Source: a virus. From it: DNA of 30,550 nt. The position numbers and the translations under genes are program-made. A model generated the notes under the pieces. The model made no database searches. It worked only from the letters and a program-made list of their open reading frames with translations, and had not been told where the DNA came from. Location of the stretch: positions 1 through 30,550 of IMG/VR virus record IMGVR_UViG_3300023481_000008; one strand, 5' to 3'. Below, one piece after another: positions 1 to 30,163 of this stretch. Numbering within the stretch: position 1 is the stretch's first letter; each line of letters opens with the position of its first letter.

Positions 1-6
1 ACCTAT

Positions 7-41
7 TTATATTATATTATATTATATTATATTAAATTAAA
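7..41. repeat. AT-only pentanucleotide tandem repeat
   Basis: Five perfect copies of TTATA (7-31) are followed by two copies of TTAAA (32-41). The run is entirely A/T and sits upstream of a nested inverted repeat and the first gene. Such tracts melt easily and occur at origins and promoters, but nothing here proves either role. It could also be simple slippage near a contig edge. Confidence 0.8.
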
Positions 42-78
42 TACTTATCTCTTATTAACTACTATTCTATGATTAAAC

Positions 79-118
79 CTATAGTTCAACCAAAGTAGGT
101 TGAATCGTAGAACTATAG
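79..118. other. Nested inverted repeat upstream of the first gene
   Basis: CTATAG (79-84) pairs with CTATAG (113-118). Inside, TTCAACC (85-91) pairs perfectly with GGTTGAA (98-104) around the loop AAAGTA. An alternative fold pairs CTATAGTTC (79-87) with GAACTATAG (110-118). The two folds share bases and exclude each other. It lies about 60 nt ahead of the plus-strand gene at 182, where an operator or leader structure would be expected. The function is inferred only from position. Confidence 0.5.
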
Positions 119-181
119 CTATTTTCATCCTGATTCTTTTAATGATGGAATTATTTAATGACTAAAAAATTGAGGAATAAA

Positions 182-475
182 ATGAAATTACAAGACATTG
201 TAAAGACCCTGCATCAAGTATCGAGATTGAGAATGCCAGAACATCAATTAGCTGCGAGAATTCTTGATGTTGGGATTAAAGACTCGATTAGAATTGATTT
301 CTACAGACGTGAGCACCACCGGGAATATGATTCTGCAAATTTATGGATAAAGTCGCATGATAAATCTCATGTTTTTGACTTCGAGAACATCTGTGAATAC
401 TTATCTATTCCGCCCGATATACTCAGAGATTTAATCAAGAATGATCCTGACCGTTTTCGTGATCGAGTAATATAG
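182..475 (+). CDS. Small phage protein of unknown function
   Basis: This encodes 97 residues. The ATG at 182 is preferred over the in-frame ATG at 158 because GAGG lies about 7 nt upstream of it, while 158 has no clear ribosome binding site. The protein is charged and predicted helical. Its C-terminal half contains the pattern W-I-x-S-x-D, then F-x-F-x-x-I-C-x-x-L, then P-x-x-L-R. From memory this resembles small regulatory-type proteins common in phage genomes, but no function is assigned. The gene converges on the ribbon-helix-helix gene and their 3' ends overlap by 41 nt (435-475), so the two transcripts would be antisense at their ends. It is the only plus-strand gene in the left 3 kb. 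Confidence 0.6.
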   Translation: MKLQDIVKTLHQVSRLRMPEHQLAARILDVGIKDSIRIDFYRREHHREYDSANLWIKSHDKSHVFDFENICEYLSIPPDILRDLIKNDPDRFRDRVI

Positions 476-647
476 CAATAATTTTGTCGAGTTTTCGAAT
501 CACCTCGGGTTTCAGCTTACCTAAAACCGCATCCATTAGGTATTGCTTTTTACTGATACCCAGCTTGTCTGCCTCCTCTTTTAATAGCTCGTTAAAATCA
601 TCGGGAAACCGAGCTGTGAAATTCACGTTCTGTTGTATCCTTGCCAT
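435..647 (-). CDS. Ribbon-helix-helix (Arc/MetJ-type) DNA-binding protein
   Basis: This encodes 70 residues. The start at 647 is chosen because AAGGAG lies just upstream in the right place; an in-frame ATG at 674 falls inside a long hairpin and has no ribosome site. Residues 5-12 form a polar strand ending FTARFP, residues 15-29 a helix, and residues 31-44 a second helix with the turn LGISKKQYL. That is the expected order for a ribbon-helix-helix dimer such as Arc. The family uses the paired strand to read DNA and usually represses nearby promoters. The gene is last in the leftward operon and directly follows the 663-730 inverted repeat, a possible operator. Its target is not shown by the sequence. 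Confidence 0.7.
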   Translation of the reverse strand: MARIQQNVNFTARFPDDFNELLKEEADKLGISKKQYLMDAVLGKLKPEVIRKLDKIIAILLDHENGQDHS

Positions 648-662
648 ATGCTCCTTAAATAA

Positions 663-730
663 CCCGTGGTTCAATCTTGGTTCCTAGCCTAGCTCTTTCT
701 ACTAGGAAGCTATAAAGATTGAACCACGGG
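663..730. other. Long inverted repeat / hairpin ahead of the RHH gene
   Basis: The 16-bp arms 663-678 and 715-730 are perfect complements (CCCGTGGTTCAATCTT against AAGATTGAACCACGGG). A second perfect 7-bp stem follows inside (681-687 with 702-708), separated by a small asymmetric bulge, with a 14-nt loop. It lies between the stop of the 40-residue peptide gene (748) and the RHH start (647). On the leftward transcript the stem is followed by TTATTT, so it could act as a weak terminator or attenuator, shield the mRNA end, or be an operator for the downstream RHH protein. Confidence 0.75.
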
Positions 731-747
731 TCTGTTCTGCTCGTTTA

Positions 748-870
748 TTAAGATGTTGGAACCATCAGTGCTAATATTTGTGATAATTGCAGTAAATAAA
801 GTATTCCGCATCCAGCTAGTGCTGAAATTAGAAAGAATGTTAGTTTTTCAAGTGTTGATAGAGTGTTCAT
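748..870 (-). CDS. Small membrane peptide (40 aa)
   Basis: The ATG at 870 starts 1 nt after the stop of the upstream gene (872-874) on the minus strand, with AGGAA upstream. The 40 residues read MNTLSTLEKL, then a hydrophobic segment at about residues 11-34 (TFFLISALAGCGILYLL and onward), then a short polar tail. One membrane-spanning helix is likely. Tight packing between neighbours and the ribosome site support it as a real gene. Function is unknown. Similar one-helix peptides in phages include holins, superinfection-exclusion proteins and inhibitors of host membrane enzymes. Confidence 0.5.
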   Translation of the reverse strand: MNTLSTLEKLTFFLISALAGCGILYLLQLSQILALMVPTS

Positions 871-871
871 T

Positions 872-1081
872 TTAGTATTTCCTAATCAGAGCGTTTAGTT
901 GTCCTTTATCTTCTAGTGTGTGGTTTTCCAGTCTTGCTCGTTTTTTTCCTCGGTTCACTTCTTTTAGATATGAAGTGGAGCCAATTACTACTGTATCACT
1001 TATTTTTACTCCGCAACTTGTGCTCCCAAGCGCTGCCAATACGATTGAGGCTTTGATATAATCCCGTACTTTATAGCTCAT
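872..1081 (-). CDS. Small protein with hydrophobic N-terminal segment
   Basis: This encodes 69 residues. Residues 8-23 are hydrophobic (ending AALGSTSC), followed by a polar, lysine- and arginine-rich C-terminal half. The segment could be a signal or anchor. The cysteine at residue 23 does not sit in a proper lipobox, so a lipoprotein is not claimed. The gene is flanked closely by two tiny membrane-peptide genes in the same leftward operon. No family is recognised. Confidence 0.55.
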   Translation of the reverse strand: MSYKVRDYIKASIVLAALGSTSCGVKISDTVVIGSTSYLKEVNRGKKRARLENHTLEDKGQLNALIRKY

Positions 1082-1092
1082 GATTTTATTCC

Positions 1093-1170
1093 TTATTTTA
1101 TAACCATATTAACTACCAAAAACGTGATACAACTTGCTAATACAAATGTCATTATGCTAATATCACTCAT
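1093..1170 (-). CDS. Micro-protein with one membrane helix (25 aa)
   Basis: The ATG at 1170 is preceded by AAGGAA at suitable spacing. The 25 residues begin MSDISIM and continue as one hydrophobic stretch (TFVLASCITFLVVNMV) ending in a lysine. The stop at 1093 is followed 12 nt later by the start of the 69-residue gene, whose own ribosome site lies in the gap. The ribosome site, hydrophobic profile and fit between neighbours support translation. Function is unknown. Confidence 0.45.
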   Translation of the reverse strand: MSDISIMTFVLASCITFLVVNMVIK

Positions 1171-1190
1171 AGTTATTTCCTTATTGGTTC

Positions 1191-1225
1191 CCCCGGCAGT
1201 CCCCTGCTAGAGGGGATTGTCGGGG
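1191..1225 (+). terminator. GC-rich hairpin, possible intrinsic terminator on the plus strand
   Basis: The 14-nt arms 1191-1204 and 1212-1225 enclose a 7-nt loop. As plus-strand RNA all 14 positions pair (two G-U pairs), and a U-rich stretch (TTTATTCATTTT) follows. As minus-strand RNA the same two positions become A-C mismatches and no U-run follows. The bias suggests it acts on rightward transcription, blocking read-through antisense to the leftward operon. It lies in the leader of the 25-residue gene. Confidence 0.5.
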
Positions 1226-1232
1226 TTTATTC

Positions 1233-1279
1233 ATTTTGATGTATTGAACATTCGTTTGGTTCTTTTTTATTTATAATCA
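1233..1279. repeat. 47-nt repeated intergenic element, intact copy
   Basis: A 33-nt block (1233-1265) directly abuts a 14-nt block TTTATTTATAATCA (1266-1279). The same two blocks recur at 1876-1908 and 1949-1962 with only two mismatches in the 33-nt part, but there a 40-nt insert separates them. The element overlaps the end of the clamp-like gene, and the other copy overlaps the end of the gene before it. Each copy therefore sits at a gene junction in the leftward operon. A regulatory or RNA-processing role is likely but unproven. Confidence 0.8.
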
Positions 1280-1860
1280 AGTATTTCAGCGTATAGATTC
1301 TTTGCTTTCGTTTTGTCGTCTAATCTCATAGGTATAATAAAACCAATGGATTGATCATTCATTGATGCGAGCACCGGTTTATATTGGTCTTTACTATCAA
1401 ATTGCAGAGTCACACCAACACCAATGTTTTTCAGTTTTGTCCTGCCAGTCCTTTCATCCAACGCCTTACATAATTGATATAGCTTATTAATATCAATCGT
1501 TATAGATGCGGTGGCACCTTGTTCTGCATCTATCACTTGCCTATAGTCCGGGAACTTTATTTTTCCGTTATTTATTGCTGTATTTTTAGGGTTAATAGTT
1601 CCGCATAACTGCTTTTCTCCTAGTTCCTGATATAATTCAAGGCCGAATCCTTTTGAGTTAAATTGTGTTGCGTTATTAAATTGGATATTAGTATTCTTTG
1701 GTTCCGTTTCTTCTGTTTTTCGTATTGCTAAGATGTCTCCATCGGTAGCTATTGCAATTTTATCTTCGAATTGCACTCCGGTCAGATTATATTTAGTAGC
1801 ATCTAACGATGATGCGAATTGTAGTCGTTGTATTTCTTTAGTTATTTCGTATTTTACCAT
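1267..1860 (-). CDS. Sliding-clamp-like protein (DNA polymerase III beta C-terminal-like)
   Basis: This encodes 197 residues, preceded by GAGG at about 8-nt spacing. Motifs resemble the C-terminal half of bacterial and phage beta clamps: ATDGDILAI (residues 38-46), FPDYRQVI (103-110), a strand-helix unit IDINKLYQLCKAL (about 123-134), a strand VGVTLQF (148-154), and a terminal IPMRL (176-180) like the clamp ending that contacts binding partners. A full clamp is about 370 residues with three domains, so this would be a short form covering roughly half. Phages carry such short forms; they might assemble with more subunits or compete for the host clamp pocket. The assignment rests on motif order and not on overall identity. 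Confidence 0.55.
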   Translation of the reverse strand: MVKYEITKEIQRLQFASSLDATKYNLTGVQFEDKIAIATDGDILAIRKTEETEPKNTNIQFNNATQFNSKGFGLELYQELGEKQLCGTINPKNTAINNGKIKFPDYRQVIDAEQGATASITIDINKLYQLCKALDERTGRTKLKNIGVGVTLQFDSKDQYKPVLASMNDQSIGFIIPMRLDDKTKAKNLYAEILDYK

Positions 1861-1875
1861 TTTTATTGCCTCTTT

Positions 1876-1962
1876 ATTTTGATGTACTGAACGTTCGTTT
1901 GGTTCTTTATCATTAAATCTTTCAGGAGCTTTTAGATCCGCAATCTGCTTTATTTATAATCA
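1876..1962. repeat. 47-nt repeated element, copy split by a 40-nt insert
   Basis: The 33-nt block at 1876-1908 matches 1233-1265 except at two positions, and the 14-nt block at 1949-1962 matches 1266-1279 exactly. Between them lie exactly 40 nt absent from the other copy. The element holds the palindrome GAACGTTC (GAACATTC in the other copy). It lies between the stop of the 123-residue gene and the start of the clamp-like gene. Confidence 0.8.
1908..1948 (-). other. Inverted copy of a portal-gene fragment
   Basis: Read on the minus strand, these 41 nt are identical (41/41) to 7793-7833 inside the portal gene, which encode portal residues about 562-574. The copied piece forms the 40-nt insert that splits the repeated element, plus one shared base. 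The leftward operon transcript would carry this piece in the same sense as portal mRNA; rightward transcription would make antisense to portal mRNA. Its ATG also opens a 16-codon reading frame (1863-1913, minus strand) that stops 2 nt before the clamp-like start. Function is unknown. Confidence 0.9.
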
Positions 1963-2331
1963 GGTATAGTAATAATAGTTTTTATTATCCTTTGATTTAC
2001 CTATCCTACCGCCGAAGTTTTCATTCCATTCTGAGAATCCTTCAGTTTTTTCATATCTTAGGTATTCCCTTAAATCCCCGCTAACCATTTGAAGAATTAG
2101 TGCATTTGTTTCGTTTAAACCCCATTCTTCTATTTCCGATTCCTCCCATGCACCAAATTCTTTTAGATAATCTTTACATGTTCGCAGCTCTTCTTTGTTT
2201 TTGATTAAACAAATGTCTGACTTGAGAGCATTCTCCCACGTTATTCTTCCGGCATTTTGCCCTATTTCCGCAGGAGATGCGCTGAATTGCATTAGGTCTA
2301 TATCTATTAATTCAGTAATGTTTATTTCCAT
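1960..2331 (-). CDS. Conserved-type phage accessory protein
   Basis: This encodes 123 residues from the ATG at 2331, which has AGGTGA at good spacing; a GTG at 2340 would add three residues. The N-terminal half contains FSASPAEIGQNAG and ITWENAL. The middle has a helical block with F-G-A-W and EIEEWGLNETNALILQMVSGDLRE. This W-N-A-x, FGAW, then N-A-L-x-x-Q-x-V-x-G-D-x-R-E pattern is familiar from small accessory proteins of many phages, but I know no function for them. It is acidic and soluble in appearance, with an odd run of tyrosines at the C-terminus. The second copy of the repeated element overlaps its stop. Confidence 0.6.
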   Translation of the reverse strand: MEINITELIDIDLMQFSASPAEIGQNAGRITWENALKSDICLIKNKEELRTCKDYLKEFGAWEESEIEEWGLNETNALILQMVSGDLREYLRYEKTEGFSEWNENFGGRIGKSKDNKNYYYYT

Positions 2332-2371
2332 TTTATTCACCTATTTAGTTAGTTATTAATTTACCCCTCAA

Positions 2372-2396
2372 ACCCGGACTTTCTCAGAGTCCAGGT
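2372..2396. other. Short hairpin between two leftward genes
   Basis: GGACT (2376-2380) pairs with AGTCC (2388-2392), extended by ACC/GGT outside one mismatch. Only a short T-run follows in the leftward direction, so it is at best a weak terminator or attenuator between the 43-residue peptide gene and the next gene. Confidence 0.3.
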
Positions 2397-2412
2397 AAAA
2401 GCAGAAAACTAT

Positions 2413-2544
2413 CTAATTACTCAACAATGCAACCACGAATAATACACACGTAACTACGTGTAGGAATCTCAGGTACCCACTGGTAGCACACGCAAGAGCG
2501 CGTTCCCTGTCTGACAGTGATTGAAGATTATTCTGATTTCTCAT
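2413..2544 (-). CDS. Small membrane peptide (43 aa), first gene of the left operon
   Basis: The ATG at 2544 is preceded by GAGGAG about 9 nt upstream and by a sigma70-like promoter. The N-terminal 20 residues are polar (MRNQNNLQSLSDRERALACA). The C-terminal part (YLRFLHVVTCVLFVVALLSN, residues 24-43) is one hydrophobic helix, so the peptide would sit with a cytoplasmic head and one membrane span. It is the first gene after the promoter, a common place for phage genes that act early on the host. No homologue is recognised. Confidence 0.5.
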   Translation of the reverse strand: MRNQNNLQSLSDRERALACATSGYLRFLHVVTCVLFVVALLSN

Positions 2545-2576
2545 AATTTCTACTCCTCATTGATTACCTATCTACT

Positions 2577-2604
2577 ACTATACACCAACGTACATAGATT
2601 GCAA
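2577..2604 (-). promoter_or_regulatory. Sigma70-like promoter for the leftward operon
   Basis: On the minus strand TTGCAA (2604-2599) and TATAGT (2582-2577) are separated by 16 nt. This places transcription start near 2570, about 25 nt before the first ATG at 2544. Both hexamers are close to consensus. It is supported by its position at the head of an otherwise promoterless run of leftward genes. Confidence 0.5.
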
Positions 2605-3268
2605 CAATAAAATACAAGCCGCTAAAAATAACTACCAACTGCTCCACAATCTACCTGGTAAGAAATATATTGACCGAAGATTTCCCTCATGATAAGGATA
2701 TACACGATTAAAAGGCTGTCTTATCTATTGCATGAGTAGCTACCCGTTCATTTAAAACCAGCATCTTTTTAGTAAGCTATCAGTGCGCGAATGTGGTGAT
2801 ATGTCAGTTATGCAATTCCTACACACTCACCCTCACCCCGTCTTCAGGACAATTCAGATGTTTCTAATGGTAAAATAAGCTTCTCAGGCTCTCAGCATTG
2901 AGTTTGCTTTTCCTGATAGATTTCAAACACTTACCCACGTTAATCCGCATCTTTCTTATCAGAAACCGGGGAACAGGAAAGGAGTAGCGCGTGAAACGCG
3001 TCTGTGTTTGTTCTAATCAGCAAACTACACACGAAGTGTGACATCTTTTGTCTTTAAACTAACAAACTACAGGCGATAGCCTGACTACCTTAATACCAAT
3101 GATACTAATACCACTATGATACACCCCCCCCTATGGGGTGGGAAGAATCCGGTTGGGGGTATAGTACTCGATCCCGAATTTTACCCAAGTATTTCCTTTC
3201 CGAGTATTATTATATTAATTATATCTAAGAATATTACTTGATTAAACGGGGATGGGTATGTCCATATA
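2605..3268. other. Gene-poor control region ahead of the packaging genes
   Basis: No convincing gene of useful length is present. A 25-codon plus-strand frame (2801-2878) with GGTGAT upstream is too weak to call. The right part holds three short hairpins (2989-3083), a tandem imperfect repeat (3091-3105 and 3106-3122, sharing TAATACCA and ATGATAC) and a C-run next to CTATGGGG (3124-3138). Next comes an AT-rich stretch (3190-3240) suitable for a promoter, though no clear -35/-10 pair was found. The divergent neighbours imply that it drives transcription both ways. It could also hold the packaging start site or an origin. Confidence 0.6.
2989..3083. repeat. Cluster of three short hairpins
   Basis: The stems are CGCGT/ACGCG with loop GAA (2989-3001), CACAC/GTGTG with loop GAA (3029-3041), and CAGGC/GCCTG with loop GATA (3070-3083). 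The second and third are preceded by the same CAAACTA. The three stems differ in sequence but keep 5-bp length and a 3-4 nt loop, so structure rather than sequence is repeated. Spacing is about 40 nt. Such sets occur as protein-binding sites in packaging or replication regions and as REP-like elements. Confidence 0.6.
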
Positions 3269-3274
3269 GTGAAT

Positions 3275-4105
3275 ATGAGCAGAGGAAGATTAAAGTCACC
3301 TACGGAAGTGGGGAACAAGGAAGGTGTGGTGAGGAAGGCCGAGGCTATGTTGGGGATAACGGAGGATGAGGAGGCGAAGAGGGAGGCGGTAAGGTTGAGG
3401 AATGGTTCTTTATATGACTCGGAGATAGCGGTGTTGAGTGATTTCTATCCTAGGAAGTCGAGAGATGCTGCTGAGGGGATGTTAAGAGCGTTAATTGCGT
3501 ATGCGGGGAGTTATTTTAGTTGGAAGAAGGTGATTGATGAGGGGGTTGTGTGTGGAAGAACGTTGCAGAGGTATTTGCAGGATGACGTATTTAGGGAGAA
3601 GTGTGACAAGTGCGGGCATGTGATGGCTCAGTTAGCTATTAGCACGTATCACCAAGCGATGTTTGAGGCTCCGTGGAGTGAGAGGATCAAGGCAGCGGAT
3701 CGGGTATTAGCTGCGTATCATCCTGAGAAGTATGATGGGAGGGTAAGGGCTGAGGTGTATAAGGCGAAGGTGGCGTTAAGGGGGGATATCTTGGGGGATT
3801 TGAGGAAAGCGGCGGAGGGGAATATTGTAGATATTAGTAAGAAGCCCATTGAGTATAATGATGAAGAGCTTAAGAAGATTGAAGGAACTGTTGAAGGAGG
3901 GAAGAAGGATGCCAATGGAAGCCAGGAGCAAGCTTCGCTTGATCCTGTATTCGAAACTATCAATAAAGAAGGAGGAAAGAAAGATGCCAATGACGGAGCA
4001 GAGCAAAGCATTTGCGAAGAAGAATTTAAAGCCATCGGAGCCGAGGGGGATGAGCGAGAAGGAGTTTCTGGAGGGGGTGAAGGAGAACGCGAAGAAGTTC
4101 TTTAA
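3275..4105 (+). CDS. Probable terminase small subunit
   Basis: This encodes 276 residues from ATG 3275; a GTG two codons upstream (3269) is possible, and neither has a strong ribosome site. Residues about 63-105 look like a helix-turn-helix (AYAGSYFSWKKV, then GVVCGRTLQRYLQ). Residues about 115-158 form the helical segment expected for oligomerisation, with WSERIKAADRVLAAYHP typical of small terminases. The C-terminal 80 residues are acidic, low-complexity and partly a tandem duplication. Small terminases form a ring that recognises the packaging site and stimulates the large subunit. Identification rests on fold pattern plus location ahead of the large subunit. The last 122 nt overlap the next gene in another frame. 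Confidence 0.7.
   Translation: MSRGRLKSPTEVGNKEGVVRKAEAMLGITEDEEAKREAVRLRNGSLYDSEIAVLSDFYPRKSRDAAEGMLRALIAYAGSYFSWKKVIDEGVVCGRTLQRYLQDDVFREKCDKCGHVMAQLAISTYHQAMFEAPWSERIKAADRVLAAYHPEKYDGRVRAEVYKAKVALRGDILGDLRKAAEGNIVDISKKPIEYNDEELKKIEGTVEGGKKDANGSQEQASLDPVFETINKEGGKKDANDGAEQSICEEEFKAIGAEGDEREGVSGGGEGEREEVL
3894..4007 (+). repeat. 75-nt tandem duplication carrying a ribosome site and start codon
   Basis: Bases 3894-3932 resemble 3969-4007 at an offset of 75 nt, with several mismatches. Each copy contains GGAGG, an 8-nt spacer, and ATGCCAATG (ATG at 3909 and 3984). Because 75 is a multiple of three, the duplication stays in frame in both overlapping frames. It gives EGGKKDAN twice in the small terminase, and MPMEARSKL then MPMTEQSKAF in the other frame. 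Confidence 0.65.
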
Positions 4106-5874: not shown

Positions 5875-6118
5875 GATTGAGGTTGCTGAGTTAAGAGGAA
5901 GAGTGGAGGAGCTTAGTAAGTTTGTTATGCATAAAGACATTCCTGGGCACGCTCCAGGGGGCCTAGCTTCTCCGACCTTCGGGGCCGCTGTTCCGTCCTT
6001 TGCTACTACTGAATCGATAGCTGCCCAAATGGCCGAGGAAGGGAATAAGGAAGAGGATTTATTGTCTAAGGAATTTTTAAGCTCAGTATATTTAATTAAG
6101 GATAATCCTAATGGCTGA
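5834..6118 (+). CDS. Small coiled-coil protein between terminase and portal
   Basis: This encodes 94 residues from a GTG start at 5834, chosen for GAAGGAGAG ending 4-5 nt upstream. Residues 9-33 form a short heptad helix (IRIEVAELRGRVEELSKFVM), followed by a Gly/Pro/Ala-rich linker and a second acidic helix. It overlaps the terminase by 41 nt and the portal start by 8 nt, so translation is probably coupled across all three. No family is recognised. The position suggests a small head-assembly or packaging accessory protein. Confidence 0.65.
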   Translation: MDKIGQEESLTSIRIEVAELRGRVEELSKFVMHKDIPGHAPGGLASPTFGAAVPSFATTESIAAQMAEEGNKEEDLLSKEFLSSVYLIKDNPNG

Positions 6119-8207
6119 TATTTTAGATTTAGAGACATTCGGTGGTTCTCAGTTTGGAAAAACAAATCCTCCTCTTTGGACTGTTAAGCACAAGAAGGGA
6201 AAGGATAAGAATTATTTAGAGTGGTTAAAGAATGAATACAACCAAAGGATGGTGGATAATGCGAGACGAGCAAGTGTTCAGTTTCGTAATTCTCTTTTAT
6301 ATGAGGGCTTGCAGTATACTGGAATGTTTTCAAGCATTAGGGGAGATGAGGCCCTCATGCCCTCTACGTTGCCGAAGGGGTTTAGTCCTGTAAATGTGAA
6401 TGAGTTGTTTGATACTGTCCAACAGAGAAGCGCAAAGTTATCTCAATTTAATATCACAACGATTCCGATTCCTCATTCGAATGAGCATAGTGACAGGGAA
6501 GGGGCGAAAGTTGTTGAGCAGTTATTTGAAACGATTAAATATAATAATAATATGCGAAGGTTGTATCGGGAGATGGTGGAGGACGCTGTTGTTTTTGCGT
6601 ATTCTTTTATTCTCACGTTATGGGATAAAGATAGAAGTAATATTGACGAGAGGTGGTTAGCGGCGAAGAAGAAAGCGGGGGACAAGAAGTTTAAGATAGA
6701 ATTAGAAGGGGAGGTTTACAATCAAGATGAGCCTAGAAGGATTGGCGATATTAGGTATAGCAGGCCTTTACCTTGGTCTGTTATTTTGGATGATGGCGGA
6801 TTAGGGCCCGAAGACTGTATGCATATGATATTGCCCAAGTGGGTGCATATAGATGAAGTGAAATTTGATTATCCTAAGCTTGCGAGTAAGATTACTGCTG
6901 AAAGCAATGCGATGTATTTTGACGTAGATACGTATTCATCGAGGAAGTTAGCGGATCATGTGTTGGTGCTTGAGGTGTTTGCAAGGAATTCCAGGTTTTT
7001 AAATGATGGTTTGTATTTCAAGGCCACACCAAGTGTTATGCTGGAGCCTCCGACGGAGAGTCCTTACCCTAGATTTGAAGCAAGTCCTTGGGGGAATCTT
7101 CCTATTGAGTGGTTGACTGATATTGACCTTAGAAGGAAGTTCTATCCGATAAGTTCTTTTCAGATTCTAGGGCCATTACAGCACTTAGAGAATCAGATTT
7201 TCTCTAAGTTCAAAGAGAATATTATGTTAAACATGCATCCTAAGATGCTTATTCCAAAGCAGAGTGGGATGCAGCAGGTGCTTGCAAACTCAGCAATGAA
7301 TTATATTTACAATGCTCCTTTCAAGCCTGAGTTAATGAGCATGAATTCCATTCCACCGGAAGGATTTAAGATTGCTGAATTAGTTGCAGGAAAGATTACA
7401 CAACTGCAAGGGCTTCAAGGAATTTCGAAAGGGGAGATAGGTCCTAATATTAGAAGCGGAAAGCAGATTAGTTTATTACAAGAGCTTGAGAGTGTAAGAA
7501 GCACGCCCGTTACACAAAAGAAAAATGATTTAGTTGTTGCGGTCGACAAAAAGACTCTTTCTATTATTGGCAAGTTTTACAGAGAGAATGATAAGAGGCT
7601 GTTATTTATCTTAGGGAAGGACAAGAAGTTTTTGGTGGAGAGTTTCAAGCATAGTGTGTTGAATAAGAGTTATGATGTAAGGATGTTGCAGGCTGATGCG
7701 TTCCCTGAGAGCCCTAGCGCAAGGTTAGAGGTGATTGATAACTTAACGCAGAATCCTAATTTCTTTTCTCTTCTTGAGCCTGAGCAGTGGGCGCAGATTG
7801 CGGATCTAAAAGCTCCTGAAAGATTTAATGATATTGTGACTGTATCGGTGAATAAGGCTGAGTGGGAGAACGTTCAGTTCATTGAGGGAAAAACTCCACC
7901 GTTGCCGACGGACGAGGATGATCATATTATTCATTGGAGGGTATTGATGACTGTCATGCGGGGGCAGAACTTTCTTAAGTTCTCGAAGAAGGTTCAAGAG
8001 GCAATGCGGGATCATTTATTGGTGCATGAGGATATTATGATGAGAACGTTAAGGGTGCATCAGAATCCTGTTTATGCAGAGAAGCTTGCCAAGCTGGAAG
8101 CCTTTCCCGTTAGCTTTACGAATCCAGATCCAGAATTATCAGCAGAGCAACAAGCACAAGCGCAGCAAGCGCAAGCACCACAAGCACCACAGACGGGAGG
8201 ACAATAA
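6111..8207 (+). CDS. Portal protein (head-tail connector)
   Basis: This encodes 698 residues, within the range of podovirus portals. It starts with a polar arm and a helical region (ARRASVQFRNSLLYEG). A mixed central wing domain follows. The conserved-type connector region is ILGPLQHLENQIF, then LNMHPKMLIPK, then QGLQGISKGEIGPN with SGKQISLLQELESVRSTP, the long tunnel helix of portals. The C-terminus ends in a Gln/Ala/Pro tail. A dodecamer would form the DNA tunnel at one capsid vertex, binding terminase during packaging and the adaptor later. The order terminase, portal, scaffold, capsid supports the call. Bases 7793-7833 recur exactly, inverted, at 1908-1948. Confidence 0.88.
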   Translation: MADILDLETFGGSQFGKTNPPLWTVKHKKGKDKNYLEWLKNEYNQRMVDNARRASVQFRNSLLYEGLQYTGMFSSIRGDEALMPSTLPKGFSPVNVNELFDTVQQRSAKLSQFNITTIPIPHSNEHSDREGAKVVEQLFETIKYNNNMRRLYREMVEDAVVFAYSFILTLWDKDRSNIDERWLAAKKKAGDKKFKIELEGEVYNQDEPRRIGDIRYSRPLPWSVILDDGGLGPEDCMHMILPKWVHIDEVKFDYPKLASKITAESNAMYFDVDTYSSRKLADHVLVLEVFARNSRFLNDGLYFKATPSVMLEPPTESPYPRFEASPWGNLPIEWLTDIDLRRKFYPISSFQILGPLQHLENQIFSKFKENIMLNMHPKMLIPKQSGMQQVLANSAMNYIYNAPFKPELMSMNSIPPEGFKIAELVAGKITQLQGLQGISKGEIGPNIRSGKQISLLQELESVRSTPVTQKKNDLVVAVDKKTLSIIGKFYRENDKRLLFILGKDKKFLVESFKHSVLNKSYDVRMLQADAFPESPSARLEVIDNLTQNPNFFSLLEPEQWAQIADLKAPERFNDIVTVSVNKAEWENVQFIEGKTPPLPTDEDDHIIHWRVLMTVMRGQNFLKFSKKVQEAMRDHLLVHEDIMMRTLRVHQNPVYAEKLAKLEAFPVSFTNPDPELSAEQQAQAQQAQAPQAPQTGGQ

Positions 8208-10835: not shown

Positions 10836-10881
10836 CCTTGCGGAGCTTTGTTTGGTGGCTCTGCTCCGCAAGGTTTTTTTT
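10836..10881 (+). terminator. Strong intrinsic terminator after the capsid gene
   Basis: A perfect 11-bp stem, CCTTGCGGAGC (10836-10846) with GCTCCGCAAGG (10863-10873), has a 16-nt loop and is followed by eight T (10874-10881). It lies 35 nt after the major capsid stop. Placement matches the T7 terminator after gene 10, which lowers downstream transcription relative to the capsid gene. Confidence 0.92.
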
Positions 10882-10917
10882 CTCACTGAAGTTCGTTTTC
10901 TCACTGAAGTTCGTTTT
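10882..10917 (+). repeat. Perfect 18-nt tandem repeat after the terminator
   Basis: CTCACTGAAGTTCGTTTT occurs at 10882-10899 and again at 10900-10917 without mismatch. It sits between the terminator and the ribosome site of the next gene. It may be a slippage product or a doubled protein- or promoter-binding site; no -35/-10 pair is apparent. Confidence 0.9.
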
Positions 10918-29960: not shown

Positions 29961-30163
29961 GCTTCCTCTTCTAATTTATCTAGTGCGTTTTTCAGGTCAT
30001 CAAATGTCAATTTAGTCCACACACTAAACCGAGCTTTTGCTGCATCAGCTATTTCCATAAGCAACAGAAAATCCTCAGATCGAATTTTCACAAAGTTATA
30101 ACCGCCCTTTGGCTGAAGTTGCGTTTGCTCCTGAAAGAATTTAAGATTTTCTAGTTTAGTCAT
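29957..30163 (-). CDS. Small early-type protein of unknown function
   Basis: This encodes 68 residues and overlaps both neighbours as ATGA. It is helical and charged: FFQEQTQLQPKGGYNFVKI, then an amphipathic helix (EDFLLLMEIADAAKARFSVW) and LTFDDLKNALDKLEEE. It could be a small protein-binding domain. Nothing in it indicates a specific function. Confidence 0.5.
   Translation of the reverse strand: MTKLENLKFFQEQTQLQPKGGYNFVKIRSEDFLLLMEIADAAKARFSVWTKLTFDDLKNALDKLEEEA

Follow-up and report, generated by a model that had tools for sequence, protein, structure and literature searches.

What is a stretch of about 40 nt, identical to part of the portal gene and inverted relative to it, doing between two leftward genes of a phage genome: is it the trace of a recombination accident, an RNA or leader with a function, a CRISPR-like unit, or an error of assembly? 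The window that we analysed spans 30,550 bp and constitutes the entire record of an uncultured virus, known from assembly alone. Its plus strand encodes a P22-like portal, the large terminase, a weakly matched head protein and tail genes, and leftward genes occupy both ends. The features on which the argument turns are as follows.

1234 to 1284, no strand assigned: intact copy of an element of about 51 nt, overlapping the last codons of the clamp-like gene and continuing beyond its stop
1267 to 1860, minus strand: clamp-like gene downstream of the insert, 197 aa, matched by PHROG 947 and PHROG 3007
1863 to 1913, minus strand: 16-codon frame whose start codon lies in the insert and whose end is 2 nt short of the clamp-like ATG; inspection by eye shows no clear ribosome-binding site
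1877 to 1907, no strand assigned: left half of the interrupted element copy (repeat search)
1908 to 1948, minus strand (portal sense): the insert, 40 or 41 nt, equal to portal bases 7793-7833 (repeat search, BLAST and exact-match script)
1949 to 1967, no strand assigned: right half of the interrupted copy, overlapping the last codons and stop of the gene at 1960-2340
1960 to 2340, minus strand: gene upstream of the insert, 126 aa, matching phrog_24784 (function unknown; E 3.1e-16)
6111 to 8207, plus strand: P22-like portal protein gene (Pfam PF16510, E 6e-13; phrog_156)
7793 to 7833, plus strand: source segment within the portal gene, touching codons 561-575, AQIADLKAPERFNDI (repeat search)

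A portal-identical insert without counterpart in the genomes compared

The minus strand of 1908-1948 is identical to portal bases 7793-7833 at 41 of 41 positions, an inverted match that was returned independently by the repeat search, BLAST and a maximal-exact-match script, and that bears out what the first-pass annotation had described. It is the longest exact repeat anywhere in the window, and chance identity is negligible, as had also been claimed: the longest repeats in simulated genomes of the same length and composition (first-order Markov, n=15) measure 14-20 nt. The reading frame of the donor portal gene is intact. The insert proper is 40 or 41 nt long, the ambiguity arising from a T-run at the insertion site. 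An additional partial match of 24 nt at 30127-30150 (83%, with a 12-nt exact core) was judged to be due to chance, since we calculate that a sequence of this length should contain about 55 exact 12-mer pairs.

The insert is an outlier among the viral loci and phages compared, because neither set holds a comparable inverted match. Dispersed inverted exact self-matches of at least 22 nt are absent from 56 other viral loci (673 kb), where the longest dispersed direct exact match is 30 nt; these loci, drawn from lysozyme and phrog_503 scans (55 share only that gene with the window, and there is one weak terminase match), are shorter than the window and so less likely to yield such a match. At a threshold of at least 18 nt, dispersed inverted exact matches are likewise absent from seven isolate phages (P22, DS1, Sf6, epsilon15, BPP-1, T7 and lambda; 298 kb), whose dispersed direct matches comprise the promoters and terminal repeat of T7, the repeats of BPP-1 (template and variable regions) and one match in P22.

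No near relative of the virus was found in IMG/VR (queried with the portal, clamp-like, capsid and terminase proteins), phage records, plasmids or GTDB genomes (queried with the portal), collections that may omit records very close to the window. The searches returned only distant portals, one in IMG/VR (L004, 21%) and one in phages (DS1, 20%). Neither the element pattern nor a codon-degenerate portal pattern gave a match in IMG/VR, and BLAST matches at E 0.08 to 4, obtained with short words, were judged to be chance.

The insert splits one copy of a direct repeat

The insert lies within one of two copies of a repeated element, which form direct repeats on either side of the clamp-like gene, 643 nt apart. 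The element had been described as 47 nt long with one intact and one split copy; both copies are indeed real, but the length is about 51 nt and the intact copy runs from 1234 to 1284. Between the two copies there are three transitions and a difference of one T in the T-run that harbours the insert; each overlaps the end of a leftward gene, in different reading frames, and extends past the stop. A third copy is not present in the window, where the next best match scores 21/32 compared with 32/32. In our reading, the clamp-like gene may represent a cassette with repeated borders, and recombination between 1234-1284 and 1877-1967 would delete it.

The 197-aa protein encoded at 1267-1860 is probably polymerase sliding-clamp-like, judging by its profile matches. 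It matches PHROG 947, a processivity factor family, at E 3.8e-5 and PHROG 3007 at E 4e-9, whereas the Pfam beta-clamp central domain scores below cutoff and beta clamps in the PDB are reached at E 0.3-0.4 only. The best PHROG match, phrog_3007 (E 4e-9), is named a RusA-like resolvase, yet phrog_947 and Pfam indicate a polymerase clamp; given this conflict, the name of either phrog_3007 or phrog_947 may be wrong. By BLASTP the clamp-like protein does not match the 195-aa annotated clamp of phage DS1, and single-sequence structure prediction was uninformative (pLDDT 33).

Several other structures are present in the window. Positions 655-740 form a very strong hairpin (-39 kcal/mol, z -7.7) with perfect 17-nt arms at 662-678 and 715-731, which covers the start of a leftward Arc-like gene (435-674) and the sequence just upstream; it could be an operator, a terminator-like structure or an RNA element. 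Next to the intact element copy, where the clamp-like gene also ends, 1191-1225 forms a stem-loop with a T-tail on the plus strand and, on the minus strand, a fold of -22.4 kcal/mol (z -3.9) without the T-tail. A 22-nt repeat in two overlapping copies with a period of 18 is located 3' of the head-protein gene (10878-10917) and has no notable fold.

Blunt junctions favour capture of a portal fragment

Aligned with the L004 portal, residues 561-575 show no gap of the kind that an insertion there would leave, so the portal appears to be the ancestral home of the segment and, on this evidence, the portal gene is the source and the insert the copy. Given 41 of 41 identical positions within coding sequence, the donor was probably the phage's own portal or a nearly identical one, and capture from the portal of a relative, which had been raised as an option, is less parsimonious. 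An insert as old as the element duplication would be expected to show zero changes 12-19% of the time, and the absence of change could also reflect selection.

The flanks of the insert and those of the source have 0 nt in common on both sides, the only ambiguous base being in the T-run. After homologous recombination, and in most cases of template switching, some bases are common to both flanks; with 0-1 nt shared at the junctions, neither homologous recombination nor template switching primed by microhomology is indicated. In addition, integration of a Cas1-Cas2 or transposon style is disfavoured, as there is no target duplication beyond bases of the A/T-run. Rather, an exact copy of the donor is found at a new place with the donor intact, and the empty site is recognisable at 1234-1284.

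We therefore favour, with a probability of roughly 0.6, the interpretation that the insert is a blunt-captured fragment of the phage's own portal gene, illegitimately joined and probably neutral or nearly so. Among the options listed in the first-pass annotation, a recombination scar thus provides the best fit, combining an exact copy, a preserved empty site and blunt junctions. We suggest that illegitimate, homology-independent recombination joined a double-stranded fragment of about 40 bp from the phage's own portal gene into a T/A tract that separates two leftward genes. The insertion site would have been one of the two direct-repeat copies bracketing the clamp-like gene, with 40 bp added and no target sequence lost, and the insert would now reside, in portal sense and mostly untranslated, in a leftward transcript between the gene at 1960-2340 and the clamp-like gene. 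What counts against such a scar is the rarity of inserts of this kind (0 in 56 loci, 0 in 7 phages), which makes the accident itself uncommon; in addition, a target restored precisely and with nothing lost is slightly neater than one would expect of an accident.

The record as a whole stems from an uncultured virus known only by assembly, and the insert could instead have arisen as a sequencing, amplification or assembly artefact, missing from the virus or confined to a minor fraction of molecules. A false join in De Bruijn assembly requires long overlaps, near k, and no such overlaps exist at either join; moreover, the outer flanks together give one intact element, which two false joins could produce only by compensating each other precisely. 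Chimeras formed during phi29 amplification are in many cases inverted, the joined segments being from 0 to more than 5,000 nt apart (PMC4595205), and the inverted source 5.9 kb away is within this geometry. Most of these chimeras, however, have 5-8 nt of overlap at the join (PMC4595205), whereas the overlap here is 0-1 nt at each of two joins. Since the junction overlaps fit assembler joins, phi29 chimeras and homologous routes poorly, blunt capture remains the best explanation; we consider an artefact unlikely and expect the insert to be present in the virus population.

The 41-bp inverted pair might also provide the arms by which the 5.9 kb separating 1908 from 7833 inverts or recombines. 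The required perfect inverted repeat exists, but flipping would split the portal gene and attach the two parts to the region of leftward genes, and neither recombinase nor invertible-gene anatomy is seen around the insert, leaving this proposal with next to no credibility.

Transcription of the insert and candidate functions

A distance of 11 nt separates the upstream stop from the start of the insert, and 47 nt lie between its end and the clamp-like ATG. Because both flanking genes are leftward, the likely transcript of the insert is leftward too and has portal sense, which would prevent it from pairing with portal mRNA. A control RNA antisense to the portal, as had been envisaged, is disfavoured not only by the flanking genes but also by rightward promoter-like matches being at shuffle level: positions 1-3400 contain 11 promoter-like matches compared with 11.3 expected from shuffles, and from the best rightward match near the insert (10/12, 1931-1960) transcription would start downstream of it.

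The insert, leader and element fold no better than shuffled sequences (z +0.35 to +1.0; plus-strand leader -0.57), and no Rfam family of any kind has a match at E<=1 anywhere in the window. Rfam, Pfam, PHROGs and PADLOC yielded nothing suggestive of a dedicated system around the insert, and defence-system models gave 0 matches among nine proteins of the two end regions. A functional role for the insert is unsupported rather than excluded.

Two such roles deserve mention. As an RNA decoy, another of the options first listed, the portal-sense stretch in the leftward transcript would soak up a host or competitor antisense or guide RNA, or a protein, and thereby shield portal mRNA. Sense orientation in a leftward transcript together with perfect identity is what a decoy requires, and the match is an outlier relative to other phages; there is, however, no known antisense partner and no RNA structure, and one exact 22-mer of the segment, searched for as the trace that a host guide might leave, is unmatched in the genomes of 84,980 bacterial and archaeal species (one each; GTDB). 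We regard a decoy as very unlikely. Alternatively, the insert may have been kept as a leader, for the longer gap and for a 16-codon frame through which translation would be coupled to that of the clamp-like gene. The frame (1913-1863, minus strand), with its insert-supplied ATG and its end 2 nt before the clamp-like gene, is real, as first proposed, and its stop just short of the clamp-like ATG would suit such coupling. By eye, though, its ATG is not preceded by a clear ribosome-binding site, and an AGAGG is already present outside the insert, 8 nt 5' of the clamp-like ATG, so the chance that it acts as a functional leader seems slim.

If nothing more than a scar, the insert documents the uptake by a phage genome of 40 bp of its own sequence, at a precise point and without homology; such events usually escape notice, since few leave the empty site preserved. 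Should relatives carry different inserts here, or inserts that track their own portal, this would instead be a new kind of self-derived RNA element.

Comparison with known systems

As possible cassette borders, the direct repeats around the clamp-like gene may be likened to the boundary sequences annotated in phage Sf6. With P22 and its sar antisense RNA (annotated in NC_002371), the window has in common a P22-like portal, an Arc-like protein gene and a short stretch that matches a phage gene; sar, however, is antisense to the adjacent ant gene, whereas the segment here has portal sense and lies 5.9 kb from the stretch that it matches.

A length of 40 nt, close to the spacer range, and an intergenic position would be compatible with the spacer of a virus-borne mini-CRISPR unit or with a solitary repeat (Racr-like), units that viruses are known to carry (PMC6858448, PMC10651486). 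The mini-CRISPR arrays of SPV1/SPV2 hold 1-2 spacers between whole repeats and have leaders with promoters, and virus-borne spacers hit relatives, the carrier being mutated or deleted at the target (PMC6858448). The window shares with SPV1/SPV2 an intergenic site and a short fragment of viral sequence beside a repeated element, but differs in having no whole flanking repeats, no leader promoter and a target that is unaltered in the carrier (PMC6858448). Indeed, a single element is split by the insert rather than repeated on each side, its sole hairpin comprises 4 bp (-1.4 kcal/mol), and no Rfam family at E<=1 and no defence-system model among the 9 end-region proteins was matched; a spacer perfectly matching its own carrier would, moreover, be self-harmful if functional. 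The repeat-plus-spacer unit put forward in the first-pass annotation is thus contradicted by an element that is split, not duplicated, by the lack of an Rfam match and by the perfect match of the insert to its own carrier, in contrast to the spacers of PMC6858448; a comparison with known CRISPR repeats, as advised there, gave no match to any CRISPR family in Rfam.

RNA anti-CRISPRs and solitary repeat units resemble the host CRISPR repeat and often have a promoter just upstream (PMC10651486). A non-coding repeat element in a phage genome is common to these units and the window (PMC10651486), but here no likeness to CRISPR repeats was found in Rfam, and the element extends over the ends of genes within a pair of leftward genes. 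For the Racr or solitary-repeat type, the window offers no Rfam match, a fold at z +0.35 and promoter matches at shuffle level. A CRISPR-like unit is accordingly extremely improbable: the anatomy fits the definition of neither a mini-CRISPR nor a solitary repeat, and a short insertion scar is the best description.

The closest parallel is with short templated or captured insertions at breaks, which, like the insert, are short exact inverted copies of a distant segment with a clean two-sided junction. Template-switch events usually show a few nt of microhomology, in contrast to the 0-1 nt observed here. Unlike templated or captured insertions, the insert is accompanied by its empty site, preserved as the second copy of the element in a phage intergenic region.
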